Both the position numbers and the translations under genes were made by a program. A DNA stretch of 64,000 bases from a virus: the IMG/VR virus record IMGVR_UViG_3300020420_000013, positions 1 through 64,000 of that record. One strand, written 5' to 3'. This document shows, in pieces, positions 20,541 through 62,884 of the stretch. Under the pieces are notes generated by a model that was given only the letters and a program-made list of their open reading frames with translations, had not been told where the DNA came from and searched no databases. Each line of letters opens with the position of its first letter. Within the stretch, counting starts at the first letter, position 1.

Positions 20541-20549
20541 CTACAATCC

Positions 20550-27111: not shown

Positions 27112-27114
27112 ACT

Positions 27115-28135: not shown

Positions 28136-28152
28136 ATGGATACTTACCAAGT

Positions 28153-28368: not shown

Positions 28369-28372
28369 TGTA

Positions 28373-32682: not shown

Positions 32683-32733
32683 TTTTAGAACCTCACTTTA
32701 TTACATTATACAACAAAAAATTGTAAATGTCAA

Positions 32734-34495: not shown

Positions 34496-34800
34496 TGGCA
34501 AAGGCATATTACAAAGATACAAGTCCATGGAAAGCAACTAGGTATGGTAACGGATATCTTGATACCTTAACTATTAGACCGATTCCAGCAGAAGCAGATG
34601 ATGTGCTATACGAAGTAGCACCGCAGTATAATCATAGACCAGACTTACTTGCTTATGACTTATATGGTACACCAAAACTTTGGTGGGTGTTTGCACAAAG
34701 GAATATGAACTCAATAAAAGATCCGGTATTTGATTTAGAATCAGGAATAGAAATATATCTACCAAAAGGCGACAAATTAAAAAGACTGTTGGGGATTTAG
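34495..34800 (+). CDS. 53: Baseplate wedge protein gp53
   Basis: A 101-residue protein with the gp53 pattern: SPWKATRYGNGYLDTLTIRP, YNHRPDLLAYDLYGTPKLWW, FAQRNMNSIKDPVFDLESG and IYLPKGDKL, a LysM-like fold that holds neighbouring wedges together. It is about half the length of T4 gp53 (196), matching the short forms of marine T4-like phages. It overlaps the preceding gene by one base and abuts the next gene. Confidence 0.88.
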   Translation: MAKAYYKDTSPWKATRYGNGYLDTLTIRPIPAEADDVLYEVAPQYNHRPDLLAYDLYGTPKLWWVFAQRNMNSIKDPVFDLESGIEIYLPKGDKLKRLLGI

Positions 34801-38920: not shown

Positions 38921-39367
38921 ATGAGTACACAAGAAAAAGATGTAATTAAAACAGTAAAAGTCCAAACAGCAAAAAGGGCCAAACCACCTATTACTAGTCG
39001 TGCTTACCGTGGTACTAGCACTGTTGATCCTAATGCAAATAGTTTTAACTTGTATGATCTTGCACTAATCAAACAGGACATTATTAATATGTTTCATATT
39101 AGACAGGGTGAAAAGTTAGAAAATCCTGAATTTGGAACAATAGTGTGGGACGCATTATACGAACCACTAACAGAACAATTAAAAGAAGCCATAGCAGAGA
39201 ACGTTACACAAATTGTAAACTACGATCCTAGGGTAACAGTAAACAACGTTACAATAGATCAATACGAAAGTGGATTACAAATTAATGTTTCAATGACATA
39301 TTTGCCTTATAATATATCAGAATCATTGCTTTTGACATTTGATCAAAATGCAGGATTTATATCATAG
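38921..39367 (+). CDS. 25: Baseplate wedge protein gp25
   Basis: A 148-residue gp25/GpW-family wedge protein. The family signature NPEFGTIVWDALYEPL (residues 68-83) is clear, followed by LKEAIAENVTQIVNYDPRV and a beta C-terminus (LQINVSMTYLPYNISESLLL). T4 gp25 (132 residues) joins the wedge to the sheath. A basic N-terminal tail of about 25 residues is extra. It lies between gp5 and gp6. Confidence 0.93.
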   Translation: MSTQEKDVIKTVKVQTAKRAKPPITSRAYRGTSTVDPNANSFNLYDLALIKQDIINMFHIRQGEKLENPEFGTIVWDALYEPLTEQLKEAIAENVTQIVNYDPRVTVNNVTIDQYESGLQINVSMTYLPYNISESLLLTFDQNAGFIS

Positions 39368-39420: not shown

Positions 39421-42400
39421 ATGTCAACAACATATAGACAAAATAGATTATTGTTAGCAGAGGACTGGAAAAGAGTTTACCAGTCTTTTAGAAACGCAGA
39501 TTTTCAAAGTTACGACTTTGACAATTTACGTAGAACAATGATCAATTACCTCAGAACTAATTATCCTGAGGACTTTAATGATTACATAGAATCAAGTGAA
39601 TATCTTGCTTTAATTGATCTTATTGCTTTCTTAGGTCAAAACATTGCTTTCAGAGTTGATTTAAATGCTAGAGAAAATTACTTAGAACTTGCAGAACGCA
39701 GAGAATCAGTTTTAAGACTAGCACGTTTGCTTTCTTACAATCCAAAACGAAATCAACCAGCAAATGGATTACTTAAATTTGAATCAGTAGCAACTACTGA
39801 AGAAATATTTGATAGTAATAATATAAACCTAGCAGGTCAAACAGTTGTTTGGAACGATCCTGCAAATACTAACTGGCAAGAACAGTTTAGAAAAATACTT
39901 AATGCCGCTCTGCCAAATAATGGAATCATAGGTAAACCGGTCAAATCAGATACAGTCAATGGTATAACTGTTCAGCAGTATCGATTCAATGCCACAAACG
40001 CAGATGTTCCAGTTTATAGTTTTACAAAAACAGTAGACGGCAAGAGTACAATATTTGAAGTAGTAAGTTCAGACATAGGATCAGGTGACATAACAGAAGA
40101 AGCACCATTGCCTGGAAATAGATTAGCATTTTTATATAGAGAAGATGGTAAAGGTAACGGAAGTACTAACACAGGTTACTTTTGTTCATTTAGGCAAGGA
40201 ATATTAGATCAAGGACAATTTTCTATTACAAATCCAGGTAGCAATCAAACAGTTCAACTTGATGCAACAAATGTAAATGATAGTGATGTATGGTTGTACA
40301 GATTAGATAATAACGGTGCTGAGAGTCAATTATGGACTAAGGTAGATGCAGTTGAAGGAAATAATGTAATCTACAATAGTGTAAGCAAAAGAATAAAAAA
40401 TATTTATAGTGTATTAAGTAGAGTTGAAGATAGAATTAGTTTAATTTTTGCTGACGGTACATTTGGTAATTTACCACAAGGTAATTTTAGAGTTTATTAT
40501 AGAACTTCTCAAAACAGAAGTTTTGCAATACAACCAGATGACATGATTGGTATTACAGTTACTATTCCTTATACAAGTAGAAACGGTGTAGGTGAAACTT
40601 TAACTATCGACATGGAATTAAAATACACAGTTGATAATGCATCAACTAGTGAAACAAATGAAAGCATTAAAAATAATGCACCAGCAACTTACTATACACA
40701 AAACAGAATGATTACTGGTGAGGATTACCAAGTAAGTCCTTTAGCAATATCACAAGAAATTATAAAAGTAAAAAGTGTTAACAGAACATCAAGCGGAATA
40801 TCAAGATACTTTGATTTGATTGATGCAACCGGAAAATATTCAAGCACAAACATTTACGGAAATGATGGAGTACTTTATAAAGAAGATAAAGACGAAGTAA
40901 CAAGTTTTAACTTTACAACAAGAACTGATGTAGAAGGTATAGTAGAAAATACTATTACACCTTTACTAAAAAATACTAATGTAAATCATTTTTACCTAAG
41001 CAAGTTTGCAAAAATTGTAACAGGCGACATAGGTGCAACTTGGGTACAAAGTAATTCAAGCACAAATAATTCAAACGGATATTTAAAAAATGTTAATGAT
41101 GATGCTTTACAGGTAGGAACATTTACAGGTAGTTCTTTAAGATATATAACACCAGGTGCACTTATTAAATTTACAGCACCAGCAGGACAACATTTTATGG
41201 CAAACAACAGTCATGCTTTAATGACTGGTAATGCTGATCATCCTCAAGCAGTTACTTACAAATGGGCAAAAGTTGTTAGTGTAGCAACAGATGGAACAAC
41301 AGTTACAAATGCTGTTGGACCAATTGTTTTAAATGATATTATTCCATCAGGTGCAATAGTAAGTGAAGTAAGACCTAAACTTGCAAATGCAATAGGCTCA
41401 GCAGTTAAAAGTCAAGTAATAGATCAAATTTTTGCATACAATACTTTTGGTTTACGTTTTGATGTAAACACAGAAAGTTGGAAAGTTATTAAACAAGAAA
41501 ACTTAAAAACAGCAGGAACATTTAGTCAAGGACAAACAGGTGACGAATCACAACAGTCATTAGATGGTAGTTGGTTATTATTGTTTCAAACTGACGGTGT
41601 TAATTACACATTAACTTATAGAACAACTAGATATGTTTTTGAAAGTGATAAAGAAATTAAATTTTATTATGATTCAACAGATAAAATTTATGATAGTAGA
41701 ACAGGAAAATTAATTAAAGATAAAATTAATATTTTGTCAATTAATACAAAGCCAGATTCTTTAGGATCTTTTACAACAGATTTCCTATGGCAAGTTAATA
41801 AAGAGTATAGAGATTCAGACAATTACATCAATAGTAAAAAAGTTGAAGTAAGTTTTTATGATAACGATAGCGACGGTGTAGTTGACAATCCAGATATTTT
41901 CGAAGAGTATGTAGATACAAACACAAACCCATTAACAAAATATGTGTTCATGAAGAAACAATCAACAACAGACCAAAGTGAAATCTTTGTATATACACCA
42001 AGCAATACTATTACAGTAAAACAAAATGAAGGCGCAGTTGGTACAAGAAGTAGTTACAATGATGGTACAATATTTTATCTTGTTGATGAAGACGTATTTA
42101 AAGTACTAAATTCAACTACACTTGCATTGGCGTTGTCAACAGATTATAAAGCATTTAAAGGTAGAGAAACAATTAAGTTTCAATACGTACATAGTGCTGA
42201 CGACTCTAATAGAATTGACCCAAGTAGCACAAATATAATTGACACTTATATATTAACTAAATCTTACGATACTAAATTTAGGAAGTATATTGCAGGTACA
42301 CTTACTAGTAAACCTTTAGCACCAAGCACAGATGAATTATATACAAGTTACGGACAAAGTATTAATGCTATTAAATCAATTAGCGATGAAGTAATTTATC

Positions 42401-42936
42401 ATCCAGTAAAATATAAAGTACTATTTGGAGATAAAGCAGATTTAAGTTTACAAGCAAAATTTAAAATTGTAAAAAATACAGAAGTAGTTGTTAATGATAA
42501 TGATTTAAAAGTAAAAGTCATTCAAGCAATTAATCAATTTTTTGCTTTAGATAATTGGGATTTTGGAGATAAATTTAGTTTCACAGAAATGGCAACATAC
42601 GTAATGAATCAAACAGCACCAAATTTATTAACATTTGTAATAGTACCAGTTGAAGCAAATAAATCATTTGGTAGCCTATACGAAATAAATTCAGAATCCG
42701 ATGAAATATTCATAAGTGGTGCAACTGTTGATAATGTTGAAATCATTGACAACATCACTGCTACTAGATTAAAGTCTGAAGGTCAAGTAGTAACATCAAC
42801 TACAACCTCAACAGGCGGTGTTTCAAGTAGTGCTTTCACTAGTGCAACTTCGTCCACAACTTCTTCTAGTAGTTCTAGTTCATCGAGCAGTAGCAGTAGC
42901 AGTGGATCAAGCGGATCTAGTGGGAGCGGATACTAA
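39421..42936 (+). CDS. 6: Baseplate wedge protein gp6 with poly-Ser tail
   Basis: An 1,171-residue wedge protein. The N-terminal region ([30 protein letters not shown], here seen as two segments; [37 protein letters not shown]) is diagnostic of gp6, and the C-terminal domain ([21 protein letters not shown]) is the conserved dimer region. It is much longer than T4 gp6 (660 residues); the extra part is a large central beta region (about 420-900). The last 40 residues are almost only Ser, Gly and Thr. AAGGA precedes the ATG; its stop overlaps the giant gene by one base. Confidence 0.9.
42823..42933. repeat. Ser/Gly low-complexity tract at the end of gp6
   Basis: Runs of AGT, AGC, TCT and TCA codons encode about 35 residues of nearly pure Ser and Gly. 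Several Ser codons alternate, so the tract is kept at the protein level rather than being a simple DNA slippage repeat. Confidence 0.7.
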
Positions 42937-45900
42937 TGGCATACGACAATAGTCAAAACGAAACTCCATTACCAACAGGAAAAAACGGAAACGAAACTCG
43001 TAAAGCGAGTAAGTTCTTACCTAGATATTTTAGAACGGTTGCTAACGAAAAGTTTATTAGTTCTACATTAGATCAATTAATAAGTTCAGGTACAGTTGAA
43101 AAAGTTAACGGATATATTGGTAGAAGAAATGCCAAGGCATTTAATTCAACAGATAGTTATATTAATGACATTTCTAATTTAAGACAAGACTATCAATTAG
43201 AACCAGCAGTAGTAGTTGATGATAATATAGGTAACACAACATTCTACAAAGATTACCAAGACTTTATTAATCAAACAAAAGTGTTTGGAGGCAATGTTGC
43301 AGACCATAGTAAATTAAATTCACAAGAATACTATGCTTGGAATCCGCATATTGACTGGGACAAATTTAGCAATTACAGAGAATACTATTGGTTACCAGAA
43401 GGTCCACAAACTTTAACTGTTTTAGGACAAGCAAAAGGAATCACTAGTACATACAAAGTAACAGTAGAAGACCAAGGCGATAATATGGCTTTTATTTTTA
43501 CACCAGATGGCAAAACTGCTAATCCAACTTTAAAACTTTATAAAGGTCAAACATATAGGTTTGTTATAGATACACCAGGACATCCTATTGCGTTTGCAAC
43601 TAATAGAGTGTTTACACCAGGTGCGGCTATTGTAACTGAAACCGTTGAGGGTGTTTTGGCGGCAGGTATATATGATAGTAAAATTTATGATAGTGCAAAC
43701 TTTGACCAAAATGGATATCTTGTTAATCCTGTAGTTGGCGGTGTTGAAGGATATGAAGCAGGAAAAAATATTAGTACACTTTATAATAAAGGTGTTACAA
43801 CTAGTGACGGTGTTGTATATGTTGAAAAAGGCGTATTAGAATTTACTATACCAGATGATGCTCCAGAAAAATTATTTTATATTAGTAAAAATGATGTAAA
43901 CACTTCTGGTAGTATGAACATTTATAATATTGAAGAAAACACTGCTATTGATGTCGATGCAGAAATAATTGGTAAACAGACATATACTACAGAGTCGGGT
44001 GTTTCATTTTCAAACGGTATGAAAATTAGATTTGGCGGAGAAGTTACTCCGGCAACTTATGTAGGTAACGAATATTATGTAGAAGGTGTAGGCGAAGAAA
44101 TCCAATTAGTCAATGAGGCAGACTTAGAAATTCCAGGATCGAGTACAGAATCAAAACAAATACCATTTGATACAGAATCATTTGATAGAGTACCTTTTAG
44201 TAATGCAAACAATTATCCTACACAAAAAGAATATATTGTTTTCAACAGAGCATCACCAGATAGAAATCAATGGTCACGTTTTAACAGATGGTTCCACAAA
44301 GATACTATTAGCCAAATTGCAACAGCAACGGGCACTCCAGAAATTTTAGATCAGACTGGTAGAGCAACAAGGCCTATTATTGAATTTGAAGCAGGTGTAA
44401 AACTTTATAATTTTGGTACAAAAGCAAAAGCAAATGTTGATCTTATTGATGTAAAAACAACAGATGTAATGAGTACCATTGAAGGTTCAATTGGTTACAA
44501 CGTTGACGGAATAGATTTAGTAGAAGGTATGAGAATACTTTTCACAGCAGACACAGATAGTTTTGTTAAAGGTAAAATATTTAAAGTAAAATTTATAAAA
44601 CATAGAAATAGTACATTTATAAATCTTAAAGAAGAAACTGATGCATCTCCATTACAGAATGAAACAGTACTAGTTACTAATGGTACAAAATATATAGGTA
44701 AAATGTTTTGGCACAACGGTACTACTTGGATTCAAGGACAAGATAAAACAGGTACAAACCTTGCACCAACATTTGATTTATTTGATGAAACAGGAAATAG
44801 TTTTTCAACTTACACAAATAATAACTTTACAGGAACAAAACTTTTTAGTTATAAAGTAGGAACAGGAACAGCAGACACAGAATTAGGATTTGCATTATCA
44901 TATCAAAATGTACAAAACACAGGTGACATAGTATTCAACTATAACTTACTTAATGATAGTTTTACTTACAATTTAAGTGGTGTTACAACAACAGTAAAAA
45001 CTGATACAAGTGTATTACGTAAGTACACAGATAGAACAGTGTTTACAAGTGTTACAGGTTGGCAAAAAGCAGACACTTTAAGTACTCAAGAAGTTGTAAG
45101 ACAGTACGACACATCAGTAAAACGCAATGACTTTCCAATTGATGTATATAACTTCAGTGGCGATTTAAATAATTTAACTGCTAAAGTATATGTAAACAAT
45201 CAAAGAAAAACCGAACTTACTGATTATCAAATTAATAGAATAAACAGAGTTGCATATATTACTTTTACTACAAAATTAAATAACGGTGATAAGTTAGTAA
45301 TCAAAACAACAAGTGAAGCCATAAAAAACGATAATGGATTTTATGAGTTTCCTAGTAACTTAGAAAATAATCCGCAAAATGCAAATTTAAATGAATTTAC
45401 TTTAGGCGAAGTAAATGATCATGTACAATCAATTGTAGATAATGTTCCGGGATTTTCAGGAACAAATCCAGGTACTAATAATTTAAGAGATTTAGGATTA
45501 TCATCTAAGTACGGTACTAAATTTTTACAACATTCAGGTCCTATGAATCTTGCTTTGTATCACATGACAAGCAAAGATGCAAATATTATAAAAGCCTTAA
45601 AGTATGTTAAAAATGAATATTCTAAATTCAAAAGAAATTTTATTTCAACAGCAGAAGGATTAGGTTATGAAGGTCCTGCTAAACAACACGTTGATAAAAT
45701 TCTTGCTAAAATGCATAATGAAAAAACAAAAGATAATGCATTTTATTTTAGTGATATGCTTGGGTCTGCAGATACTACTAGAAAAGAATACACAGTTGTA
45801 GATGCCGACGCACAATATTATGCAATTAGTTTTGTACATAACTTAACGTCTTTAAGTAATAAAGCAGTTTACGTTTATCTAAATGGTAAGCAACTTGTTC

Positions 45901-48900
45901 ATGGAACAGATTATACTTTTACAACACAAGGCTTTGCACAAATTACAGCCACGTTGGCTATTGGTGATAAGATAGAAATATTTGAACACACAACAACTGA
46001 TGGTTGTTATATTCCACAAACACCTAGTAAACTAGGTTTATATCCTGCTTATGTTCCGCAAAAATACAGCGATAACACTTATCAAACAGCAGTTGATGTA
46101 ATACAAGGTCATGATGGAAGTATTACAAAAGCATACGGTGATTTCAGAGACGATGTATTATTAGAATTAGAAAAAAGAATTTACAATAATATTAAAGTTC
46201 CATATGATAAAGAAGTTGTAGACATACACGAATTCAAAGGTTCGTTTGATAGAGATACAGGATTTTCAAGAGATACTATTAACAGCGGTATGATGGCTGA
46301 ATTTATTCAGTGGTTAGAAATAGTTGGTAGTTTAGATTATACAACAAGTGAATTTTATAGTAACACGGATACGTTTACTTGGAACTATGGTGCAATGACT
46401 AATCCAGATGGTGTTACTTTACCAGGCTATTGGAGAGCAGTTTACAAGCAATGGTTAGACACTGATAGACCACATACACATCCTTGGGAAGTATTAGGAT
46501 ATCACACTAAACCAACTTGGTGGGAAACTACATATGGCCCTGCACCTTACACAAATGAAAATAGAATATTATGGGACGACTTAACAGAAGGTAGAGTGCG
46601 TGAACCTAACAAAACTATTGTATATAGAAATAATTACAAAAGGAAAAATTTAAATTTAAACATTCCTGTAGATAGCCAAGGACAATTAATTAGTCCTCAT
46701 GATTGCGGATATGCACAAAACGTTGTTGTTCCTTTAACAAGTAATAACTTTGTGTTTGGCGACGAAGCACCTACTGAAAGTGCTTGGAGAAAAAGTTCAG
46801 AATATCCATTTGCGTTAATGATTAGTTGGTGTTTAAATCAACCTACAAAAATAATAGGATTAGGATTTGATAGATCAAGAACTATAAGGAATAGTGCAAA
46901 AGAATTAGTATATAGTGCAACAAATAAAAGAATTGCATTAGACGATATAGTATGGCCTAATACTGCTACTGATACCACAAGAAGTCAAACAGCAGGATTT
47001 GTTAATTACATCTTTGATTATCTTTATGGAAGTATTACAACAACGATTGCAGATTACAAAGAAAACATTGCTAATCTACAAAACAAATTAGGTTGTAAAC
47101 TAGGAGGCTTTACACAAAAAGATAAGTTCAAACTTATCCTTGACAGTAGAACACCTACAAACGAAGGTAATGTTTTTATTCCAGAAGAAAACTATAAAGT
47201 TATTTTTAATACAAGTTCGCCAATTGATGCAGTCAGTTACAGTGGTGTCATTGTAGAAAAAGCAAAAGGCGGTTACATAATAAAAGGTTATGATAATACT
47301 GCACCAATGTTTAAATATAACAAGCCACTCGAAGTTGCCGCTGATCCTGTAAGAACAGTTGGCGCAGTCAGTGAAACTTTTGTTAAGTTCGAAGTAGGTC
47401 AAACTTATTCTGCAGGTACATTGGCTGAGAATGGACAAAAATATTACAGAGCAAAAGTTACTCATACAGCAACAGCATTCATAGAAGATAATTGGACACC
47501 GTTACCAGCACTACCTAGCAAAGGTGGACGTACTGCAATATTTAGATCTAAGTTTGAAAACACTGTAAGCACACTTCCTTATGGTACTACATTGTTAACA
47601 ATTCAAGATGTAGTAGACTTTTTATTAGGATATGGAAAGTACCAAACATCAATTGGATTTACATTTGATACATTTAATAGAGAATTAGAACAGGTTGAAA
47701 ACTGGGATTTAACAACTAGAGAATTTTTATTCTGGACTACACAAAATTGGCAAGAAGGTGCACTTATTACATTAAGTCCTTCAGCACAAGAATTAAACTT
47801 TAGTAGACAGTATGCGGTAGTTGATGATATATTTGATCCATTCTATGATTACAGTTTACTTAAAGCAGATGGTAAAAAACTAAAAAGAAATTTCAGTAGT
47901 ACAAAAAGAGATAGCCTTAATGAGTTTGGTTTGCAAGTTAAAAATAGTGCAGACGGAATATATCATTTAAAACTTCCATTAGTACAACGAGAACACGTTT
48001 TAATTATTGATAATAAAACTGTATTCAACGATATAATTTATGATATTACACCTGGTTATAGACAAGAGAGAATTAAAGTATTAGGATATAGAACTGAAAA
48101 ATGGACAGGTGGATTGAATATACCTGGCTTTATATATGATAGTGCAAGTTGTACAGAATGGGAACAATGGAAAGATTATGCAATAGGTGATATTGTACAG
48201 CATAAAACTTTTTATTATGTTGCGAATAAAAAAATCGCAGGCACTAGTACTTTTGCAGATCAAGATTGGAATGTATTACCTAAAAAACCAGAGAGTTCAT
48301 TAATACCAAACTTTGAATACAAAACAAATCAGTTTAGTGATTTTTATGACTTAGACACTGACAACTTTGATAGTGAACAACAGCGTCTAGCACAGCATTT
48401 AATTGGCTACCAAAAAAGACAGTATATACAAAACATTATTAATGACGATGTTTCGCAATACAAATTTTATCAAGGAATGATCCAAGATAAAGGAACGTCA
48501 AATGCACTTACAAAAATGTTTGATGCATTAGGTAGTGCTAACAAAGACAGTTTAGAGTTTTACGAAGAATGGGCACTTAAAAGAGGACAGTATGGAGCCT
48601 CACAAGGATTTGACGAAGTTGAATTTTTACTTGACGAAAGTAAATTTAAATTAAGTCCTCAACCTGTAGAGTTGGTTAACTTTATAGATCCTAGTGCAAC
48701 TGATTTAATTATAAGACAAGTACCAAGTGATGTTTATCTAAAACCACAAGGATATGCACATACTCCTTTCCCTACAAATTATTTTAGTGAAGGTTTTATA
48801 AAGACAGCAGGATACGTTAACGAAGATGATGTAAACTTTACATTAACAAATTATGATGATATATTAAACTTAGACCCTGCTAATGTAAATGTTAACAGTT

Positions 48901-51900
48901 ATGTTTGGGTAGCAAAAGATTTACAAACTTGGAATGTTTACAAGTATGCACGAACTAATATTAAAGTATTAGACTTAACAACTGATAGTGCAGGAGTAAC
49001 AAGTATTAAATGTGTTAATGCACCTAATGTAGTAAAAGATGAAATTGTTGGTATAGGAAATGTAACAGGACAAGAGAAGTTTTTCAAAGTTGAAAGTGTA
49101 TCACTAGATACTATTAAAGCAAAGGCTTCAACCGCACCTACTGCCGATGCTACTAACATAACAGGCTTTCTTACAAAATTTGAACTTGCTAGATTACCTA
49201 ACTTAATCAAAGCAAATGAATTTGTTGGTAAAAGAGAAATAGAAGTAGGATCAACTGTTTGGGTAGATGATGACGATTCTAATAGATGGGTAGTATTAAA
49301 GAACACAGGCGGTTACGACTTAAAACAAAACATATACAATGATAGCACAAATTATACGCAAGGAATAGAAAAGAATTTTGGTGCTAATGTTCATGCAGAC
49401 GGAAATAACCAAACACTTGCAGTAGGTTCGCCAGACATAACTGGTAGAGGTAAAGTTCATGTTTATTTCAGAGGTAGTGAAAATATTAATCATATAATCA
49501 CGCAAACAATTATAGAACCAGAATATTTCGCAGATGCTAATAGTGGATTTGGAACAGCAGTACATCTAAGTGAAGATGCAGAATACTTAATAGTAGGAGC
49601 ACCGTTTGCCTCAAATGTTCGTAACAAATTTAAAGGACAATTCAGCGGTGCATCAACTTATGCAAAAGGTGAAATTGTTAAATGGCAAGAACAGTTATGG
49701 AAAGCAACTGCAATTATATTACCTAAAGATGATAGCATAGATTACAATTCATTTAGATCATCTGCACAAGGACACCAAGCAATTAAGGATGCCAACACAG
49801 CAGGAACTTACATTGACATAAAACATATTGTTACAGGTAATTACGGATTAGTAAATCAGTCAACAGATCATATTTTAATTAGAGCACCAAAGAATCAATA
49901 CAGAGGAACGCAAATAGGTGATGTATTACATACAAAATGGAATAGATTGACTACTAGATATCCAAGCGGAAGAGATCCTTTTAATAACGATTCGACTTTA
50001 AATGCCGCGTTCTTTACAGGTACTCATACTATCAATGAAAAGGTTGATCAAATTTTATTAGTGCCAAGCACACAATCAGGGGTTAGCATTGGAGATATAA
50101 TTGAAACTAGCGATGCTAGAGGTAAAGTCGTTTACACATTTACAAACGCAGATAACGAATCTGTAATTTATGTTAATGATGTTAATGGTACTTTTGCAAC
50201 TTCCGGTGATTTATATTTTGGAAATATCTTAATTGGTGCTTACACTTTACCTATTGTTGAAAATCATGCATATTACGATGGTTGGTGGAAAGTACAAATA
50301 GGATCAACAATTACTCCTACAACCAATGAAGAAAAATACTTTGGTCTAGTAATTAAAGATATTATTAAACTAAATGAATCAAGAACTCCAGATATCTATA
50401 CAAATATATTAGATAACAAAGCAGTTGATGTTGCAACGGCTAATACGAAGAGCAGTCATTTAGAAACAGTTAGTCATACAGGCGCCACTGGTGCAGTAGT
50501 TGACAACAGAGTAATGATTAGAGCAAGTAAAACATTTAGTGATAGTCTTAATACTAGTGATAAATTTAGTTTATGGTTAAACAGCATTCCACTTACTAAT
50601 GGAACAATACAAAATCCTAGTGCTATTGCACTTGATTGGGCAACACTTAATTACACAGAATTTACAGTAAGTGACAAATGGGACGGATATTTAGAAATAG
50701 CATTTACAAACTTTGATACAGTTGGTAACAATAATCCTAGTGATCCTAATTATAATCCTAATTACGGTAATCCTTTCTTTCCTGTCGTAGGAGATACTAT
50801 TAGAGGAAAAACTACAGGCACAACAGCCACGGTTGCTTATGTAAAACAAGATTCAATTGCAGAGGCAAGAGTTTACTTCAAAAACAAAAGCGGTGACTTT
50901 AAAATAGGTTCAACGCAAAATGATACAGAGATTATAGAAATTACAACTTATACTCCATTAGGTGGCGGCGCTGATCAAATACTTGATATGGGTAGTATAA
51001 CTGAAAGACACGCCGACAATGCCAACGCAGGCAAACTACTTGTATTTGATTATGGAAGTAATATTACACCAGGTTCAAATGATAAGTTAGTGGACTTAGA
51101 ATATTGGTTATACAAACAAAAAATTATACAAGGTATTGCTAGTGATAGTAATCCACCAACTGATGTTAACAATGAATGGCAAAGGGTTTATAACATTCCT
51201 GTTGAACCTGCGGCAACATTTGTAGGTTATAATAAAGAAGGTTACTATGCAATCTATAAAAAGAATGCAAGTGGATATTACACATTACTAAATGCATACA
51301 CACTTCCAGATGCAAATAACTTTAAGCATTTAGGAAACAAAATTAAAATTGTTAAAAATACATCAGGTTATACTGCAATTATTACTGAAAAAGGAAATAA
51401 TACTTTTGCTGAACCAGGTAGAATACATTTTATAGATAATCCAGCAGGAACAGATAATTGGCAACTTGGTGCAGACACAAACTACAAAGGTCCTTGGAAT
51501 TCTAATTACAGTTATTACACAGGAAATATTGTTATATGGAATAACAATTTGTACAAAGCAAAAACAAATATTGTACCTAGTGCATTTAATTCAAGTCTAT
51601 GGACATTACAAACTGAAGAAATAGATCTAGTAGGTTACGTACCAAATGATAGTGGCTTTACTATTGCCGGCGGCGATAGTGCAATTAATCAAACTAACAT
51701 TTTAAGTTTCGGTGGCACTATTAGTGTAAGCAGTGATGGAAACGTTCTAGCAAGTACTTTAAAATATGGCGACCAAATTGATAGTAGTTTATCAAGTCCA
51801 AAGATTGCAATTTATAGACTTAACCAAGGCAGATACCAATATGATCAACTGATTAGTGCTGAGTATGTTGATGAACAATTTGCAGAATCAGTAGCAGTAA

Positions 51901-54900
51901 GCAATGATGGAAAACTTGTTGCCGTAGGTGCACCTTACAATAGTGTTACTGTAAACAACGGTGGTTGTGTTTACATCTATAAAAATAATAACGGAACGTT
52001 TGTGTTAAATCAAACTATAAGAGGTCCTGGCGATTTAATTAATGAAAGATTTGGTACTAAAGTAGAGTTTGATGGTAATAGACTTGTTGTAAATTCAAGT
52101 GGCGGCGATGTACAAGATACTACAACCTTTGATGGTAGTAAAGTAGGAAACGCATCTCCTATAACATCATTTGATAACAACTTAACAAACTTCACAACAA
52201 CGTTTTCTAATACAGGAGAAATACTTGTATATGAAAGAATTAATGATACTTTATTATTTGGTCAATCATTAGACTTTGATAATTTAGACTTTGATTCAAC
52301 TATCACTGGTAAGAGCATATCGTTCTTTGGTGAAAACTTACACATACAAAACAACCACATTTATATTGGACTACCTAAACTAAAAAATACTGATGCGTCA
52401 GTTCTAGGCAGAGTTTTAGACTATAGATTGCCTGCTACTACTAACATATGGACAAAACACAGAGTTGCAACTGATCAGGTGGATCTTAAAAAGTTAAAAG
52501 GTTCATTCTTATATAACACAAAGACTAAAAAGTTTATAACATATTTAGATTACATAGATCCAATACAGGGTAAGATTGCTGGTCCGGCTGAGCAGGAACT
52601 TTATTTTAAAGTTGATTATGATCCTGCTATCTACTCAAATGGTACTGCAGGTTTTGTAGATACAACTAACTTTAATGCAGATGACTTGGTTGGTAAACTA
52701 TGGTGGGATATAGGAGCAGTTAGATTCCTTGATCCTTACTCAGGAGGTATTATTAATGTATCAAATAGATTTAATAAAAAGTTTACTGGTACTAGTGTAG
52801 ATATTTACGAATGGGTAGAAAGTAGTTTACTTCCAAGCGAATGGGACGCACAAACAGATACTGAATCAGCACTTGCTTTAGGTATAAGCGGTACAAGTAA
52901 GTACGGGGATAATGCGTATTCAATAAAAAGAATTTACAACAAAAACACAGGTACATTTACAAATTACTATTATTACTGGGTAAAGAACAAAAAGACAACA
53001 CCAAATATTCCAAGCAGAACTATAAGTGCATTTGATGTACAAGCATTTATTGACTCTCCTGAAAAACAAGGATATAAATTTGTAAACTTATTAGGTAACA
53101 ATAAATTTTCAATTCATAATTGCGAAAGTTTAATTGAAGGAAAAGATGTTGCAATTAATTTTAGATACTGGACTATCGATAATCAAAATATCAATATTCA
53201 CAATCAGTATCAACTATTGACAGACAGTTACGCGGCAAGTAAACCAAACAAAGATATTGAAAGAAAATGGTTTGATAGTTTAATAGGATTTGATGAACAA
53301 GAGAGAATAGTTCCAGATCCATTAGCAAGTCCAAAAGAAATGTATGGTATTCTTAATACTCCAAGACAAAGTATGTTTGTTAACAGAGTTGAAGCAATCA
53401 AACAAGTTATAGAACGTGTAAACAGAACACTAAAAGAAAAAGTTATGGTTGATGATTTCAATCTAACTTCTTTATCGAAATATGAAGGTGCTCCTGCAAG
53501 TGCGGAAGGATACTATGATAAAACTGTAAACACTTATGCAGAATTATTATTAGTAAATGTTACAAAGAAAACTCAGGCTACTTTAAATCCTATCATTGTA
53601 AACGGAAGAATAACTGATGTATTAGTAGATGAAGCAGGTAGAGGATATACCACTGCACCTAGAGTAGCAATAACAGATCCACAAGGTTCTGGTGCTGAAA
53701 TAAAACTTACAATAAACGCCATTGGGGCAGTTACAGGTGCAACAGTTACTAAACAAGGTAATGGTTATACAGATGCAACTAGTTTACAGGTTAGAAAATA
53801 TTCAGTGTTAGTTTCAGCAGATGAAAATTATAACAATAGATGGTCAATATACGAATATGTAGGCGCAACTTCTCCTTGGAGTAAAACCAAAGGACAAAAA
53901 TATGATGTAAGACCATATTGGAATTATGCTGATTGGTATGCAACAGGTTACAATGAATTAACAGGAATTGATCATACTGTTGGACAAAGTTATGAGTTAG
54001 GAAGTTTAGAAGCAGACATAGGAGACATTGTTAAAATCAATACTGTTGGAACAGGCGGTTGGTTATTGCTTAAGAAAAAAGATAGTCAAGTAACAAGTGA
54101 TTACACAATTAACTTCACTACAATAGGTAGACAGAATGCAACTATACAATTTACAAATGCTTTATATGATTATGCTAACAGCGAAGTAGGATTTGATGGA
54201 ATAAGTTATGATGAAAATAGATATGACTTACAGCCTGCAAAAGAAACACGTATAATTTTAGAAACTTTAAGAGATCATTTGTTTGTAGATGAATTAGAAA
54301 CAGAATATAACAAGTTATTCTTTACAAGCATACGTTACTTACTGTCAGAACAACCATTTGTGGATTGGTTATTTAAAACTTCATTTATAAAAGCACAACA
54401 CAACGTTGGTGAATTACGTCAAGACATTACATATAATAATGATAACTTACCTAGTTACCAACAATATGCAGAAGAAGTTAAACCTTACAAAACTAAAATT
54501 AGAGAATTTATTAGTAACTATGAAAAAATAGATACTACTGGTACAACTGTAACTGACTTTGATCTACCTCAATACTACTTAGATACAGAAGGTAAAATTG
54601 TACCACAAGAAATTACAGTAACAGATAATGAATTCTTTAGTACAAATGCACAAACAAGTGTATATCCAAGTAAACATTGGTTAGACAATGCAGGATTTGA
54701 AATAGAAAAAATTGCTGTATCAAATGCTGGTTCAGGTTATACTATTGCACCAGTAGTAAGAATTACAGGCGGTGGCGGAACAGGCGCAACTGCTATTGCA
54801 TACGTTGGTGGCGGAAAAGTTACATCAATTAAAGTTACAAATGGTGGTAGTGGATATAAGAGTGCACCTACAATTAAATTAGATGGCACGGTTTCTTCAA

Positions 54901-57900
54901 GTGGTGTAGAAGCAAGTGCATCTGCACAAATAGGAAAAGGTAAAACTAGACAGTTTAAAAATGTAATTAAATTTGATAGAACAACTGACGATCTAGTGTT
55001 TGGTAAATTTGATGTAGCATATTCAACAGGTGCTAGTGCTATCCAAGGCGGACCATTACAGGTTGCAACTACTATTCCAGGTAGAGAACTAGAACAAGAC
55101 TTTAGTGGTACAGGATCACAATTCCAGTTTAATTTGAAATTTCCTATTACACTTGACAAAGAACATTATAGAATTTTAATCAAAGACAATAATAATCCAT
55201 TGAATGTTTGGACAGAAGTATTACAAACAAGTTATACGCCAAGCAATGAAGAAGATATTGCTTTAGGAAGAAGTAGACAAAGAGGTAGAATTACATTTGA
55301 TACTCCACCTGCAAACAATACGACATTAAGAGTAAGATATCAAGTAGATAATGCATTCTTAACTTATGCAGATAGAGTACACTTCTTGTACGAACCAATC
55401 GCAGGTATGCCTGATAAGTTATTTGATCAACTAATGAAAGGTATTGACTATGGTGGAGTTCAAGTTAAGAGTTTTGACTTTGGCGGCGGAACTGGTTGGT
55501 CAAGTGATCCGTACTATACATCTGCTTTTGACACTTATGATACTACATATGAAGATGAAGTATTTAGAATAGATAATAGTACAAAGGTGTTTACATTTAA
55601 AAAACCTCTTGAAACAGGTATTGTTTATAATGTATATAAAAATAATGTAAGAATAGATGATCCAAACTTTGGAACTGCAAATCAAACAAATGTAAATGCA
55701 AAGATTACAAGTATTACAGGTGCAGGTCAAACAGGAATCGCACTTACAGACGACCAGACATATACAAACCTAGTTGTCATAGACGAACAAGTTGTACCAA
55801 CAGCAGACAATGATGTAATTGTACTCAGAAAAACTACAAGTGATGGTTCGTTTATTCCTGATCCAAGAGCATATGATACAGCATTAAGTGGCGGTAATTT
55901 AAATTATGGTACTGCAACAGGACTTAATGCAGAGGACATTGTTGTAGACGGTGACGGGTTTGTTACACCTACGTCAAGTGGCGGCCCAGAAGAATTAGTT
56001 CAAGGACAAGTTCTTGACACTCTTGACATAAAAGTTTATGACAGAATAGGCGAAGGTGGTAGTATCGTTGATACTAGATCATATGATGTAGACACAGCAG
56101 GAACAGGAGTATTTGACTTTGGTGTTTATCCTCAAAGTAAAGAAGGAATATTTGTTAAGAAAAACAATGTTATACTTGGCCCAAGTGCTTATACTGTAAA
56201 CTTTAGAACAAAGAAAATTACAATACCAAGTTTATCTCTGAATGATAGAATTAATATTATTACAATGAGTGGTAATGGTGAAAAGATACTTGATATGGAT
56301 CAGTTTACTGGTGATGGAAGTACATTACAATATGTAACACAGGTTAATTGGCAAACAGGTTTAACATCTTTTGTTACAGTAGATGGACAAATAGTAGATT
56401 ACGTAATAGAAACTACCGACAGCACATATGATACAACTAATAAAGTTGCAATTACATTTGGTGCTCCTCCGGCAGTAGGTGCTGTTATAGATTATATGAT
56501 TTATGCAAGTGAAAGTAAAGTATTTTCTGAAATTAAAAAAGATACATTTACAGCAGATGGAAGCACTCAAGTATATACAATGAGTGTAACGCCATTCAGT
56601 TCATTACCTAGCACACATAACGTAATTGTAGAAACGTTTACAAATGCAAATGATAGAAAAGTATTAAATGCAGGATACAATGAACAGTTTACAGTGGAGT
56701 CAAATAAGTTTGAATATCAATTAAAGAACTGGCAACAACCAGGAGGTACTTTAGGTGCTACAGATATAGATGTCTACTTGAATGGTGTTGCTCTAACTTA
56801 TACTTCAGACTTTATCTTTAAACCTGCAAATACAAGTATTGAAATATTTGAAAATGTTGCAAACGTTGGTGACATATTAGAAATATTTGTTAAGACAGAT
56901 GGTCAATATACTATCAATGGCAACCAACTAACATTGTCAACTCTGCCTGCAATAGATACAAAAGTTGTTGTAACACACTTTAGTAAACATGATATCCAAG
57001 CAATAGAAAGAACAAACTTTGATATTGTGTCAAGATCTACTTTGAATGTTGGCTCTAAAGATGATTTAGAATACAAACAGTTACGCAATGGCTTGATTAA
57101 ATTAAGAAAACAAGCATACGATACTGAATTTGTTTGGTTAGTTGTAAATGGTAAAGTACAAACACCTAATGTTGACTACACATTAACAAACGATAATAAA
57201 TTTATTAGAACACTTAATCCATTTGCGGACAATGATGTTGTAGAAATAATTGAATTTGCAACAGAAGGACCTATCACTGGCAAGTTCGGATATAGATTAT
57301 TCAAAGATATGTTGAATAGAACAGTTTACAAACGTTTGGGTGATAGTAACTCTTACAGACTTGCTAAAGACTTAGGTGTATTTGATAAAGAACTTGAAGT
57401 AGATGACGCTACTAACTTACCAACTCCAGATATAACAAACAATATTCCAGGTATTATCTTCATAAATGCTGAACGTATTGAGTATTTTGTTAAGTCTGGT
57501 AACAAATTAAGACAACTTAGACGCGGTACATTAGGTACTGGAGTAAAAGAATTACATAAAAAAGGTGATGAATTGTTCAACCAGGGTATAGACGAGACCA
57601 TACCATATCAAGATAAATTATTAGTACAGAACTTTACTACTACAAACAGTCTTGTTAGTGGAAATTATGTGGAAAGAGAATATACGTTGGATTGGAATCC
57701 AGCAAGTCGCAACGAAATGGAAGTATTCTTAGGTGGACAACGTTTAACCAAAGGATACCTAAACACAGGCGGCAGTGCAGTTAAGGACATATTCCACCCA
57801 ACTACTGGAATGGATAGTCCAGATGGTGATATTACAGTAACATTACCAAATTATCCTCAAACTTGGGGACTAGAACGTGATGGATTTAGAGTACAATATG

Positions 57901-58088
57901 ACTCTAGTACAAATAGCACTAAAATTTATGTATATTCACTGGCAGATGGAGAGAAATTAACAGTGATTCGTAAGCAAGGACAACTTTGGAACGATATTGT
58001 AGACAGTACAAGCACAAAGAGTTTGGGTAGATCCCAAAATCCAGTGGCTCAGTTCATTCGTGCAAAGGAAGTGAAATTGCCAAACTAA
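42936..58088 (+). CDS. Giant 5,050-residue baseplate/tail structural protein
   Basis: One uninterrupted frame of 15.15 kb, placed where T4 has gp7 to gp10. The first 150 residues ([30 protein letters not shown]-like [19 protein letters not shown]) resemble a conserved start of large wedge proteins in marine T4-like phages. Residues 190-335 are a cupredoxin-like module without copper Cys/His. Aromatic W..Y..G.IV motifs near 1740, 2240 and 2860 resemble carbohydrate-binding modules. FG-GAP-like segments occur at 2142-2226 and 2926-3150. GSGYT.AP modules lie at about 3560 and 3925. At least seven short beta modules with VxxNG...DY occur at both ends. Likely a fused wedge plus adhesin; exact T4 equivalence is not shown. 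Confidence 0.75.
56147..57940 (+). repeat. Repeated beta modules at the C-terminal end of the giant protein
   Basis: Five diverged copies of a 45-60 residue unit start with a V-x-NG or DG-type turn, then a DY/Y strand, and close with GD.I.I: residues 4405-4447, 4478-4526, 4611-4655, 4731-4778 and 4928-5000. Two more copies lie near the N-terminus at 749-791 and 977-1019. Confidence 0.6.
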
Positions 58089-58112: not shown

Positions 58113-58727
58113 ATGACAGACAACATATTTGACAAATCCGGGTTTAGTGTTCAAGGACATATACATATCTTTGACAAAGACTCTGGCGAAACTATTATTA
58201 ATAAACGCAACGCAATACACTATGAAAACATGAGTATTGCTTTAGCAGAATCACTATCTAATGCTGGACAAGGCTTTGTATATCAAATGGCATTTGGAAA
58301 CGGTGGTACTAGTGTTGATCCTACAGGCATTATTACTTACTTGACTCCAAATAGCACAGGTGTTAATGCAAGTCTTTACAACCAGACATATATTAAAGTT
58401 GTTGATGATCAGAGTGCAAACAATACTGATCCAAATAGAAACAAGATTGAAACAAGACACGTAACAGGAACAAATTATACTGACATATTAGTTAGTACTA
58501 TATTAGATTACGGTGAACCATCAGGGCAAGATGCAAATGATACTGCACAAAATACAGCAAGTAATTTTGTATTCGATGAATTAGGCCTTGTAAGTTATTC
58601 ACCAGCAGGAACAGGAAAACTTTTGACACACGTTATATTCCATCCTGTGCAAAAGAGTTTAAACAGATTAATCCAAATAGATTATACACTGAGAGTACAA
58701 AGTTTAACTGGATTTAACGAGGGGTAA
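58113..58727 (+). CDS. Conserved baseplate/tail-associated virion protein
   Basis: A 204-residue protein (FSVQGHIHIFDKDSGETIINKRNAIHYENM as two segments, YQMAFGNGGTSVDPTG, ASNFVFDELGLVSYSPAGTGKLLTHVIFHPVQKSLNR again as segments). It looks like a compact beta-sandwich with a conserved FDELGL block. I have the impression that it is conserved in marine T4-like phages next to the short-fibre genes, but no T4 counterpart is recognised. It sits between the giant protein and the collar-domain fibre and starts behind AGGA. Confidence 0.65.
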   Translation: MTDNIFDKSGFSVQGHIHIFDKDSGETIINKRNAIHYENMSIALAESLSNAGQGFVYQMAFGNGGTSVDPTGIITYLTPNSTGVNASLYNQTYIKVVDDQSANNTDPNRNKIETRHVTGTNYTDILVSTILDYGEPSGQDANDTAQNTASNFVFDELGLVSYSPAGTGKLLTHVIFHPVQKSLNRLIQIDYTLRVQSLTGFNEG

Positions 58728-58730: not shown

Positions 58731-60821
58731 ATGGCATATACCATAAATTATACTGACTCCACTAAAGGTAGTATAGTAATCGAAGACTCTACTATCGATA
58801 ACACAACCAGTTTAAGCATACCTGGTAAAAATACAACGGAGTACGGTACACAAATAGGACAAAACTTTTTGCGAATGTTGGAAAACTTTGCAAACGATAC
58901 TGCTCCTACAAGTCCTATCGAAGGACAGTTATGGTATGACAGTACAGCAGGAACAGATACATTAAAAGTTTATGATGGAACAAGTTGGCAAGAAGCAGGC
59001 GGAATAAAACGTGCCTCAAGTGCACCAAGTGTAGCAAATAGCAATACAGGAGACCTTTGGGTTGACACTGATAACCAACAATTATATTTGTTTACAGGTT
59101 CCGGTTGGGTATTAGTAGGTCCAGAATTTAGTCAAGGTTTAGCCGCAGGTATTAAACCAGAAGTAGTTGTAGGAAACGATGATATTAATTACACAATTCT
59201 TAAAATGGAATCAGGTGGAAACCTAATAGCGGTAATTAGTGCTAATCAATTTTCACCAAAACAAAAATTAAACGGTATAGACAATCCAGTAAAAGTTGGA
59301 ATAAACTTATCAACTGCAAATCTAAACAGTAATGGTGTTCCTAAATTTTACGGAACAGCCGACTCGGCAGATAACTTAATGGTAGGAACTACTAAAGTTA
59401 GTTCTGCTAGTTTTCTAAGATCAGATCAAGAGTCAACAGCAACATCAAAACTTAATGTAAACACAAACTCAGGTATAATAATCGGAAGTGATGCAAAATT
59501 AAGTATTGGTATTGAAAATACCGCTGGTACTATTTCACAACAAACTTCAGGATCACCAATTGACTTCAAAACAAATGACACTGGAAGTATTGCAACAAGA
59601 TTAAGAATAGATTCAACTGGACAAGTAGGTATAGGAACATTAAGTCCTGCCGCAACAGTTGATATTGCAGGAACATTAAGAGCAACAGGTGTAATAACAA
59701 ATACAAACATTACACAATCATCTAACACAGGTACAGGTTCAATAGTAACTGCTGGTGGTGTTGGTGTTGCAAAAAGCGTTTACATAGGCGAGGCTTTAAA
59801 TGTTGCTGGTAGTGTTACAACAGGTGACATTATTCCGCAAGTTATTAATAATAAAAACATTGGAACTTCAGCAAATAAATTTGCATCAGTACACGCAACA
59901 AATATTTTTGGTGAATTAACAGGAAACGTTACAGGAACAGTTTCTGGTAGATCAGGATCAACAGAAAAACTTGCAAGTAGAACAACTTTTAAAGTCCAAG
60001 GTGATGTAAGTGCCGCTGATATTCAGTTTGACGGGCAATTTGCAGACACAGGTGAAACTACTTTACAAAAAGTTTTTCAAACTTCAATAGATCCTGCTTT
60101 TATATCTAACAAGCCAGTAGTAAACGCATCACAATTTGATGACGAGTTTTTAATTACAAGAGTTACTGACATAGATGGTAATGGTACAGGTGTTAGAAAG
60201 ATATCAAGAAACAATTTATTTAATGCACTACCAGTTAATCCATTAGGAATGGTAGTACCGTACGCAGTACCAGAAGCAAAAATTCCATCAGGCTTAACTG
60301 CTTGGCAATTATGTGATGGTAGAGAACTGTTTATTTCATCATACAGTGAATTATTCACACTAATAGGTTATACTTACAAAGCACAGAGTGAAACAACTGC
60401 TGGTAAATTTGCTTTACCAGATATGAGAGGTAGATTTCCATTAGGTAAAGATAACATGGGTGGTACAAGTGCAAATAGAGTACAAAGTACATCAGCAGAT
60501 AGCGAAGGTTTATTTGCAGGTGGCGAAACTAAAGTTATTAGCATAGACAAGTTACCAGATCATGAACACGATTTTAAATCTGAAGAAAATTATCAATTTT
60601 ATGCAATTAGAGATGGTAATCCTGCGAACAGTATAGGACAAGGATCTTCAGTAATAGTTTACGATGCACCTACAGGAACAAATGCCGGTCAGGCATATCC
60701 TAGGTCAGGTGGATTAGTTTCATCAACAGCAGTAGGACAACCACAAGACGTAATGAATCCATACTTAACTATGAATTACTTAATGTACACAGGTAATCCG
60801 GAAGGGTCAGGAGCAGTTTAA
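58731..60821 (+). CDS. Short tail fibre-like protein with collar domain (gp12-like)
   Basis: A 696-residue fibre. Residues 1-65 are the N-terminal module shared with the next two genes (GKNTTEYGTQIGQNFLRMLENFA, then GQLWYD). The shaft has VGIGTLSPAATVDIAGTLRA and NKNIGTSANKFASVHA motifs. Residues 503-575 are a phage tail-collar domain (LGMVVPYAVPE, AWQLCDGRELFISSYSELF, KFALPDMRGRFPLG), and DHEHDF and PYLTMNYLM follow, as in T4 gp12 and other receptor-binding fibres. GAGGGG precedes the ATG; the stop overlaps the next start. Confidence 0.85.
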   Translation: MAYTINYTDSTKGSIVIEDSTIDNTTSLSIPGKNTTEYGTQIGQNFLRMLENFANDTAPTSPIEGQLWYDSTAGTDTLKVYDGTSWQEAGGIKRASSAPSVANSNTGDLWVDTDNQQLYLFTGSGWVLVGPEFSQGLAAGIKPEVVVGNDDINYTILKMESGGNLIAVISANQFSPKQKLNGIDNPVKVGINLSTANLNSNGVPKFYGTADSADNLMVGTTKVSSASFLRSDQESTATSKLNVNTNSGIIIGSDAKLSIGIENTAGTISQQTSGSPIDFKTNDTGSIATRLRIDSTGQVGIGTLSPAATVDIAGTLRATGVITNTNITQSSNTGTGSIVTAGGVGVAKSVYIGEALNVAGSVTTGDIIPQVINNKNIGTSANKFASVHATNIFGELTGNVTGTVSGRSGSTEKLASRTTFKVQGDVSAADIQFDGQFADTGETTLQKVFQTSIDPAFISNKPVVNASQFDDEFLITRVTDIDGNGTGVRKISRNNLFNALPVNPLGMVVPYAVPEAKIPSGLTAWQLCDGRELFISSYSELFTLIGYTYKAQSETTAGKFALPDMRGRFPLGKDNMGGTSANRVQSTSADSEGLFAGGETKVISIDKLPDHEHDFKSEENYQFYAIRDGNPANSIGQGSSVIVYDAPTGTNAGQAYPRSGGLVSSTAVGQPQDVMNPYLTMNYLMYTGNPEGSGAV

Positions 60822-62884
60822 TGGCATATCAAATTAATAAAACAGACGGCACACTATTAGTTCAACTGGTAGACGGAAGTATTGATACTGCTACAACTGA
60901 CATTACATTAATTGGTAGAAACTATTCAGGCTTTGGGGAAAGCATTAATGAAAATTTTGTTAAGATGCTTGAAAACTTTGCCAATACTGCGGCACCGAGC
61001 AATCCTTTAACAGGTCAACTGTGGTGGGATAAATCAGAATCAAGATTAAAGATATGGAATGGAACAGCATTTACAAGTGCTGGCGGTCCTATTGTAAGTT
61101 CATCACAGCCTACTATGGTTGCAGGAGACATTTGGATTGATAATTTAAATAATCAACTTTATTTTTATGATGGTTCGGATTTAGAATTAGCAGGACCAAT
61201 TTATACAAGCACACAAAAAAGATCAGGATTCAAAGTTGAAACTTTACAAGATTCACAAAACTTAGATAGAGTTATTATTAAGTTTTTCTTAGGCGGAACA
61301 CTTGTTGGTGTGTACAATAATGTTGCTTTTACTCCTAAGGCAGGATTTGAAATAACAGGACTTACAGGTATTTTACAAAAAGGATTTACATTAGTTGAAA
61401 GTGATTTTAAAGTACATGGTACAGCAACAGCGGCAGATACTATTGTTAACGCACAAGGTATTAAGAAAAATGCATCTCAGTTTATGCCTACTGATGCAAA
61501 CGCAACTTCAAATGGTTCAATAACAACAATTAATAATTCAGGTATTATTGTAGGACCAGAAAACAATATACAAATTTTAATAGATGCACAACAATCAGTT
61601 ATACAAAATAATGTTGCTGATAGAGATATTTTTGTTAAGACAAGGAAGACAACAGGATTTGAAAATGCAATACACATAGATTCAAGTGAATCTAAAATAG
61701 GTATATTTAAAACAAATCCAATAGCAACTTTAGACATTAACGGAAGTACACGAATCAGCGGTGACCTAACAGTTTTAGGTAACACTATTTCAGTTGAATC
61801 GCAAACTTTAAAAATTGTTGACAAAAATATTGAACTTGCTTTAGGTTCTGATAGTACACTGCTTACTGATTCACAAGTTGACGACGGTGGTATATTAATT
61901 AGAGCAACACCAGATGATAAAGAATTTTTATGGAAAAATGCAACAAACAGTTGGACAGCAAACGTAAATTACGACTCTACAAAAGGTTACAAGTTTAACG
62001 GTAATGAAATGATAACACAGGTTGGATCAACTCCAACTATGAAACATATTCAATCAGCACCAGACCTTACAAATGTTGGAACACTTACAAGTTTAACTGT
62101 TGATAACACAACCATTGATGGCACAACAATTACTACAGGAAGCGGTAATCCATTATCATTTACAAGTGATGGTCCTATTACAATTACTAATAGTCAAACT
62201 ATCAGAGGCTTACCTACTCCTTCACAGGCAACAGACGCCGCAAGTAAAAGTTATGTTGATGATACTGTAAACGGAGAAAGAGTTTCATTTAGTATTGATA
62301 TTACTGGATTAACAGATGCACAGATATTATTAGTAGTTGAGGATATTGTTCCTGCAAGTACTAAAAAAGAAGGTACACAGGCTTACTTACATTGTACAAG
62401 TACTACTGGTGCAACTGCAACATTCTCAGCATCTACACTTAATAATGCATTAAGTAAAACTACAACATCAGTAGATAAAACAATTACAGCATCACCACAA
62501 ACTGTGGTAAGTGTTGTAAAACAAGCAAATACAAGATTAACACTTGGCGGAACACATGGATACGAAGGTGGACAATCAGTAACAATTACTGGTGCTACTG
62601 GTTTAACTGCTTTAAATGGTACACATACTATTTCAAACATAGTTGACGCACAAACAATAGAAATTAACTTAGATACCGCTTCAAACGGTAACACTTATAC
62701 TGGAAGTTCAGCAACTGTATCAAGGGTACCTGTAACAGGAAATGAGAACCAATCTGTTGTATCAGACTTTACATTTAGCCAAGCAGTTGGTAGTGTTGTA
62801 CTATCTTTAGCAAGATCTGTTAAGATATGTACCATTACAGGCGGTGTTTGGACTGGACCCGTAAACGGTAGTTCTAGTGTTTAA
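60821..62884 (+). CDS. Tail fibre, second tandem paralogue
   Basis: A 687-residue fibre starting with the same module (INKTDGT..VQLVDGSIDT, RNYSGFGESINENFVKMLENFA, GQLWWD). The shaft has ATLDINGSTRISGDLTVLGN, also seen in the minus-strand protein at 11357-12322. Residues 480-510 (GLPTPSQATDAASKSYVDDT) are a fibre motif common in T4-like phages. Residues 570-632 (GGTHGYEGGQSVTITGATGL) match the module of the gene at 12380-12997. No collar domain is present, so receptor specificity differs from the first fibre. The start overlaps the upstream stop (TAATG). Confidence 0.8.
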   Translation: MAYQINKTDGTLLVQLVDGSIDTATTDITLIGRNYSGFGESINENFVKMLENFANTAAPSNPLTGQLWWDKSESRLKIWNGTAFTSAGGPIVSSSQPTMVAGDIWIDNLNNQLYFYDGSDLELAGPIYTSTQKRSGFKVETLQDSQNLDRVIIKFFLGGTLVGVYNNVAFTPKAGFEITGLTGILQKGFTLVESDFKVHGTATAADTIVNAQGIKKNASQFMPTDANATSNGSITTINNSGIIVGPENNIQILIDAQQSVIQNNVADRDIFVKTRKTTGFENAIHIDSSESKIGIFKTNPIATLDINGSTRISGDLTVLGNTISVESQTLKIVDKNIELALGSDSTLLTDSQVDDGGILIRATPDDKEFLWKNATNSWTANVNYDSTKGYKFNGNEMITQVGSTPTMKHIQSAPDLTNVGTLTSLTVDNTTIDGTTITTGSGNPLSFTSDGPITITNSQTIRGLPTPSQATDAASKSYVDDTVNGERVSFSIDITGLTDAQILLVVEDIVPASTKKEGTQAYLHCTSTTGATATFSASTLNNALSKTTTSVDKTITASPQTVVSVVKQANTRLTLGGTHGYEGGQSVTITGATGLTALNGTHTISNIVDAQTIEINLDTASNGNTYTGSSATVSRVPVTGNENQSVVSDFTFSQAVGSVVLSLARSVKICTITGGVWTGPVNGSSSV

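Follow-up and report, generated by a model that had tools for sequence, protein, structure and literature searches.

What kind of protein can fill, with a single polypeptide of 5,050 amino acids (aa), the baseplate gene position that T4 gives to gp7 and its neighbours? The question is raised by a 64,000-nucleotide stretch of viral DNA, here called the window, which covers positions 1 to 64,000 of the IMG/VR virus record IMGVR_UViG_3300020420_000013, itself a 68.3-kb fragment. The window belongs to a T4-superfamily contractile phage. At 42936-58088 on the + strand lies one open reading frame (ORF) with an ATG start, and its product has a calculated mass of 564 kDa and an isoelectric point of 5.1. 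By sequence comparison, we assign this giant protein to PHROG 10938, a previously catalogued family of very large jumbo-phage tail-baseplate proteins. It is likely to be a baseplate protein of the RaK2/PA5oct/Atu_ph07 type encoded after gp6, with conserved parts that would dock on the wedge and variable insertions that would project outward.

The giant ORF is real and intact. The first-pass annotation had described one 15.15-kb frame after gp6 and before the fibre genes, and this description holds. The first base of the giant gene is the last base of the gp6 stop codon. A second IMG/VR contig (G001/L086) also encodes a giant of 5,050 aa, identical at 5,031 of 5,050 residues, with 19 substitutions and no gaps. 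Nine further metagenomic contigs carry a complete giant ORF of 4,571-5,422 aa; in a tenth (L091) the gene is cut at its 5′ end. No internal stops were found among the metagenomic giant hits that were read out. Against three 88%-identical relatives, with ~3,900 residues available for comparison, the ratio of nonsynonymous to synonymous substitution (dN/dS) was 0.065-0.149 in all 500-codon blocks. Misassembly, which the first-pass annotation had named as one thing that would refute its reading, and chance are excluded by the independent contig of identical length, the full-length relatives and the dN/dS values. In one metagenomic relative (L011; 5357-7855 and 8365-11334) the frame is broken after 832 aa, which may be a sequencing error or a true split gene.

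To place the giant in a family, we used four slices that span the protein. Three of them matched phrog_10938 (E 5e-146, 2e-107 and 5e-51), and the C-terminal slice had no phrog_10938 match. Relatives were found by tblastn in 86 phage records, and nearly all of the matches listed were jumbo-phage genomes. Two metagenome scans returned 324 and at least 581 relatives, in sets that may overlap. Family members include Atu_ph07 AUZ94962.1 (4,449 aa), PA5oct gp355 (3,857 aa), RaK2 gp465/ORF070 (3,326 aa), CBB_236 and SCTP-2 gp140 (3,807 aa). The giant is homologous to the jumbo isolates over its N-terminal ~2,000 residues and over residues 3200-4000, at ~20-40% identity per 200-residue slice. It is 600-1,700 residues longer than they are, and differs from them in its variable middle (residues 2000-3200) and in its CBM5/12 and cupredoxin insertions, which some members lack. 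Predicted structures of family members are already in BFVD, labelled as uncharacterised or YHYH-domain proteins. Sequence searches of the PDB returned nothing relevant, a DNA-level search of phage records gave no match, and one scan of viral sequences that started from the SCTP-2 core gave no hits.

Gene order is conserved within the family. The homologue lies directly 3′ of gp6 in Atu_ph07, PA5oct, RaK2 and CBB, and the giant in the window has the same place in a gp53-gp5-gp25-gp6 module. The Atu_ph07 gp6 and giant genes have the same one-base overlap (16330-19926 and 19926-33275 in locus L001). In SCTP-2 the gp6 place, before the homologue, is taken by a large gene with no annotation. This gene, gp141 (L004 10624-19914), encodes ~3,096 aa, so gp6 may also be inflated in some relatives. 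Two members have been seen in virions: PA5oct gp355 is annotated with a note of electrospray-ionisation tandem mass spectrometry (ESI-MS/MS), and CBB_236 was detected by mass spectrometry in purified virions (21 peptides, 7.7% coverage; PMC5259590). A paper on Alcyoneusvirus adsorption does not discuss the RaK2 homologue (PMC10253068).

In T4, the gene position after gp6 is held by gp7 (1,032 aa), whereas the giant is five times longer. To compare the two types of protein across genomes, we used a profile of the gp7 core and a profile of the giant core (residues 1640-1905). The gp7-core profile gave E ≤ 5e-36 in the positive controls T4, Sf20, P-SSM2 and S-CAM22. With a threshold of E ≤ 1, it had no match in this record, nor in the complete Atu_ph07, PA5oct, RaK2, SCTP-2 and CBB genomes. 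The giant-core profile gave the complementary pattern: it matched this record and the same five jumbo phages, and had no match in T4, Sf20, P-SSM2, S-CAM22, S-H38 or S-ShM2. The gp8 family PF09215 was positive in T4, P-SSM2 and S-CAM22, with no match in this record or the five complete jumbo genomes. The first-pass annotation had stated that gp7 and gp8 are absent as separate genes; neither is recognisable in this record or in the five complete relatives. That gp7 core and gp8 on one side and the giant core on the other are mutually exclusive in the same slot supports a functional replacement.

We then compared the giant directly with gp7 and gp8, by the profile-profile and structure-prediction approaches that the first-pass annotation had proposed. 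In the parts tested, there was no detectable similarity to either in sequence or fold. The Pfam families Gp7_helical, Gp7_5th and Gp7_6th had no match at E ≤ 1 in the four slices, and the T4 gp7 control was positive. No profile-profile test exceeded 2.7% hhalign probability, whether with alignments of 16 and ~90 sequences, with reversed controls, with the gp7 core of T4 and cyanophages in one combined profile or with a profile of the gp7 helical segment. That highest value was obtained with the gp7-core profile at residues ~1840-1871. AlphaFold2 models were made of residues 1-2030 in two slices, with mean predicted local distance difference test (pLDDT) scores of 83.5 and 83.9. For the model of residues 1040-2030 (mean pLDDT 83.5) there was no PDB match at E ≤ 0.001, and gp7 was not among the best 50 Foldseek matches of either model. 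Our best reading is that the giant replaces gp7 or has diverged from gp7 beyond recognition. Since gp7 counts as a component of the conserved contractile-tail wedge, the structure of one jumbo-type giant would be informative: it would show if an unrelated protein can serve to rebuild this wedge.

The first-pass annotation had further proposed that gp7 to gp10 are fused in the giant together with an adhesin. This fusion is rejected: gp9/10-type and gp12-like genes are separate, and the giant has no matching profiles. The gp9/gp10-type gene lies at 1275-2738 (-), with PF07880 (T4_gp9_10_N) at E 1.5e-7 over the cut-off, phrog_677 at E 6e-108 and an hhalign probability of 96.6 to T4 gp10. Its T4_gp9_10_N match, at 2586-2732 (-), is the only one in the record and is far from the main baseplate module; this domain was not found inside the giant. 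The first-pass annotation had said that gp7 to gp10 homologues elsewhere in the genome would refute its reading, and for gp9/gp10 this gene is such a case. Since the match is limited to the N-terminal domain, the product is gp9/gp10-type and not a demonstrated orthologue of either protein. Profiles of T4 gp8, gp9, gp10 and gp11 had no convincing match to any giant slice. With no profile or fold match of any slice to T4 gp7, gp8 or gp10, a wedge fused to gp8-gp10 is without positive sequence evidence. Near the C-terminus, phrog_460 ("head closure Hc2") and phrog_438 ("baseplate wedge subunit") do match, and neither was accepted as a sign of gp14 or gp8, because the matches fall on a GSGY..P repeat. 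This module is common to otherwise unrelated phage proteins, which accounts for such stray matches. Cyanophage proteins of the gp7, gp8 and gp14 types also carry it, and it is a source of misleading PHROG annotations. The length and position of the giant, and the failure of PF09215 to find a separate gp8, are what a gp7-gp8-gp9-gp10 fusion plus adhesin would lead one to expect. Against this stand the missing gp7-gp11 profile matches in every slice, the gp9/10-type domain in another gene and the repeat behind the gp8-like match, and we regard the fusion as highly improbable. What survives of the earlier idea is a single giant in the gp7 slot with modular, beta-rich and adhesin-like content.

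How the giant came to hold this slot can be explained in more than one way. It may be a genuine gp7 orthologue that has grown by insertions and diverged too far to be recognised by sequence. This is a finer version of our best explanation and has, we think, a little less than an even chance of being correct. The N-terminal helices (residues 18-75) would then be the gp7 helical domain and the motif FYQG.I..KGT (~1840-1871) the gp7 core, with ~1,700 inserted residues between them. The slot is that of gp7, the cyanophage giants of this slot do have a gp7 core, and the best alignment of the gp7-core profile in any slice falls exactly on the most conserved motif of the family. However, the hhalign probability there is just 1.5-2.7% with a 4-residue offset within the motif, the gp7 helical segment reaches ≤0.4%, and gp7 is missing from the best Foldseek matches. 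If instead an unrelated protein displaced gp7 and gp8 in this lineage, the place in the wedge would be the same and the fold different. The complementary distribution of gp7 core or gp8 and giant core over ten to twelve genomes, and confident models with no gp7 match, argue for such a displacement. On the other hand, hidden Markov model and Foldseek searches easily miss short helical wedge cores, and the best-scoring gp7-core place is suggestive of remote homology, so we hold displacement to be rather unlikely. Its broader form, that throughout the RaK2/PA5oct/marine jumbo lineage T4-type gp7 and gp8 gave way to one non-homologous giant with adhesin-like modules, so that the gp6-gp7 wedge was rebuilt with an unrelated partner, seems slightly more doubtful still.

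A different possibility is that the giant is a tail-associated adhesin or fibre which merely adjoins gp6 and is not a wedge component. Its CBM5/12 and beta-rich modules, and its variable middle and C-terminus, fit this idea. But conservation is highest in the N-terminal 2,000 residues, which very distant jumbo phages have in common, unlike fibres, and the slot is conserved; the gp7 place would otherwise hold no wedge protein. We therefore consider an adhesin next to gp6 improbable, though less so than the fusion.

We favor a giant baseplate protein that works as part of the wedge. Most likely, the conserved regions (residues 1-160, ~400-2000 and 3200-3900) dock on the gp6-gp53-gp25 wedge, where T4 has gp7 and gp8; we infer this from the slot, the mutual exclusivity and the presence of relatives in virions. 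Each wedge would probably contain one giant and each virion six. The cupredoxin fold, the two CBM5/12 modules, residues 2000-3200, the GSGY repeats and the C-terminus are the variable insertions, and these most likely stick out from the baseplate rim. Judging by the folds of these modules, they would either brace fibres or bind glycans of the host surface or the extracellular material. A part in triggering contraction is conceivable. Several points weigh against this picture. In the searches with the modeled residues 1-2030, taken in two slices and compared through the best 50 Foldseek matches, and in the profile tests, neither T4 gp7 nor any wedge protein of solved structure was matched. The term "wedge scaffold" is therefore based on the gene position, on the detection of relatives in virions and on the phyletic exclusivity. 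In PHROGs the family is placed under "head and packaging", with no basis given for the annotation. The location, copy number and ligand of the giant are proposals.

Along the giant, conserved regions alternate with modules of variable occurrence. The conserved N-terminus (residues 1-160, 42936-43415) was seen in the alignments and the AlphaFold2 model and has the helical motif LP..FRT..N.KF... It is followed by a cupredoxin-fold insertion (residues ~170-335, 43443-43940), which is present in only 53 of 93 aligned relatives. Foldseek matched it to rusticyanin (E 4e-4, prob 1.00), so the cupredoxin-like module of the first-pass annotation was confirmed on the predicted structure. The His/Cys/His copper ligands are not there, as in relatives the positions where Cys and His would be expected hold mostly Ser or Asp, and a copper enzyme was rejected for this reason. 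The carbohydrate-binding-like motif was likewise confirmed. CBM5/12 chitin-binding-type module 1 (residues 1486-1522, 47391-47501) scored 28.3 bits with PF02839 (cut-off 26.2), and the model matches chitin-binding domains by Foldseek with a best root-mean-square deviation of 1.6-1.9 Å over ~45 residues. CBM5/12-like module 2 (residues ~1735-1778, 48138-48269) is an insertion that the jumbo isolates lack. Their fold and profile matches make these modules candidates for glycan binding in a large group of marine phages that are uncultured. Conservation within the family peaks in a core (residues 1640-1905, 47853-48650) that was found by alignments and profile search and has the motif IGYQ.R.YL.NI..(15)FYQG.I..KGT. 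The variable middle (residues 2000-3200, 48933-52535) is largely missing from PA5oct, RaK2 and SCTP-2. It contains the FG-GAP-like segment (51873-51980) that had been noted earlier; a match is present but weak, at 16.8 bits and below the Pfam cut-off of 23. Two GSGY..P repeat modules, both in common with cyanophage giants, lie at residues 3540-3617 (53553-53786) and 3911-3987 (54666-54896). Between them, the alignments show a conserved C-terminal region (residues 3640-3900, 53853-54635) with the motif W.FKTSF...E.KPY.TK.R.

The genes around the giant are those of a baseplate module. Upstream on the + strand, profile searches identified a gp53-like wedge protein (34495-34800), a gp5-like hub protein (37377-38912) and a gp25-like wedge protein (38921-39367); a gene for a conserved virion protein starts at 34801, between the gp53-like and gp5-like genes. 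The gp6-like baseplate wedge protein (39421-42936, +; 1,171 aa) matched phrog_10646 (E 1e-296) and phrog_219 (E 7e-19). Directly 3′ of the giant are a conserved 204-aa protein (58113-58727, +; phrog_11259) and a gp12-like short-fibre protein (58731-60821, +) with a Collar domain and an hhalign value of 93.4 to the gp12 profile. The latter is the first of three tandem fibre proteins on the + strand (58731-60821, 60821-62884 and 62917 onwards), which have different C-termini and an N-terminal domain in common (phrog_14394/15511; NF..mLENFA..P..P..GQLWYD). Beyond the window, after the fibre genes, two adjacent look-alike ORFs of 275 and 279 aa (record positions 65883-67730; L097 10884-12731) look like glycosyltransferases. 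Elsewhere in the window are a major head protein, a portal, gp46/47-type nuclease subunits and a late sigma factor.

A second fibre/baseplate cluster occupies 1-10.3 kb on the - strand. It includes two related large proteins of 1,237 and 947 aa (3547-7260 and 7421-10264, both -), which match PHROGs named "baseplate wedge subunit"; the former has a Laminin_G_3 lectin-like domain. These two may form a second adsorption cluster. A fibre-like protein at 3-848 (-) shares the chitin-binding-type module of the giant: two stretches of it match CBM5/12 (65 bits).

The first-pass annotation had called the giant an unusual architecture for a contractile-tail baseplate. This was not borne out: jumbo-phage homologues of 3.3-4.4 thousand residues and cyanophage proteins of 5.2-6.6 thousand residues fill the same slot, so neither its size nor its position is new. 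The gene after gp6 encodes 5,195 aa in P-SSM2, annotated as gp7, and 5,512 aa in S-H38, annotated as "baseplate wedge initiator". In S-ShM2, S-CAM22 and S-TIM4 it encodes 6,198, 6,273 and 6,603 aa, respectively. These cyanophage proteins share with the giant the slot after gp25-gp6, an equal or larger size and the GSGY..P repeat module, over which alone the two can be aligned. All five have the T4 gp7 core motif FY.tKGt..S.kfLFklLY, and the core lies roughly 200 to 700 residues into the protein, whereas the motif is not detectable in the giant of the window. A published comparison found T4 gp7 absent from marine myophages and proposed VrlC as its substitute (PMC7029224). VrlC of pelagi- and cyanomyophages is also a large baseplate-module protein. 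With phiM7 VrlC (1,801 aa) and a similarly placed P-SSM2 protein (2,506 aa), the giant had no convincing profile match outside the repeat, and homology to VrlC was rejected. Among jumbo and marine phages of the T4 superfamily, a giant polypeptide in the gp7 slot is thus common, and it comes in two forms, a cyanophage type with a recognisable gp7 core and a jumbo type without one.

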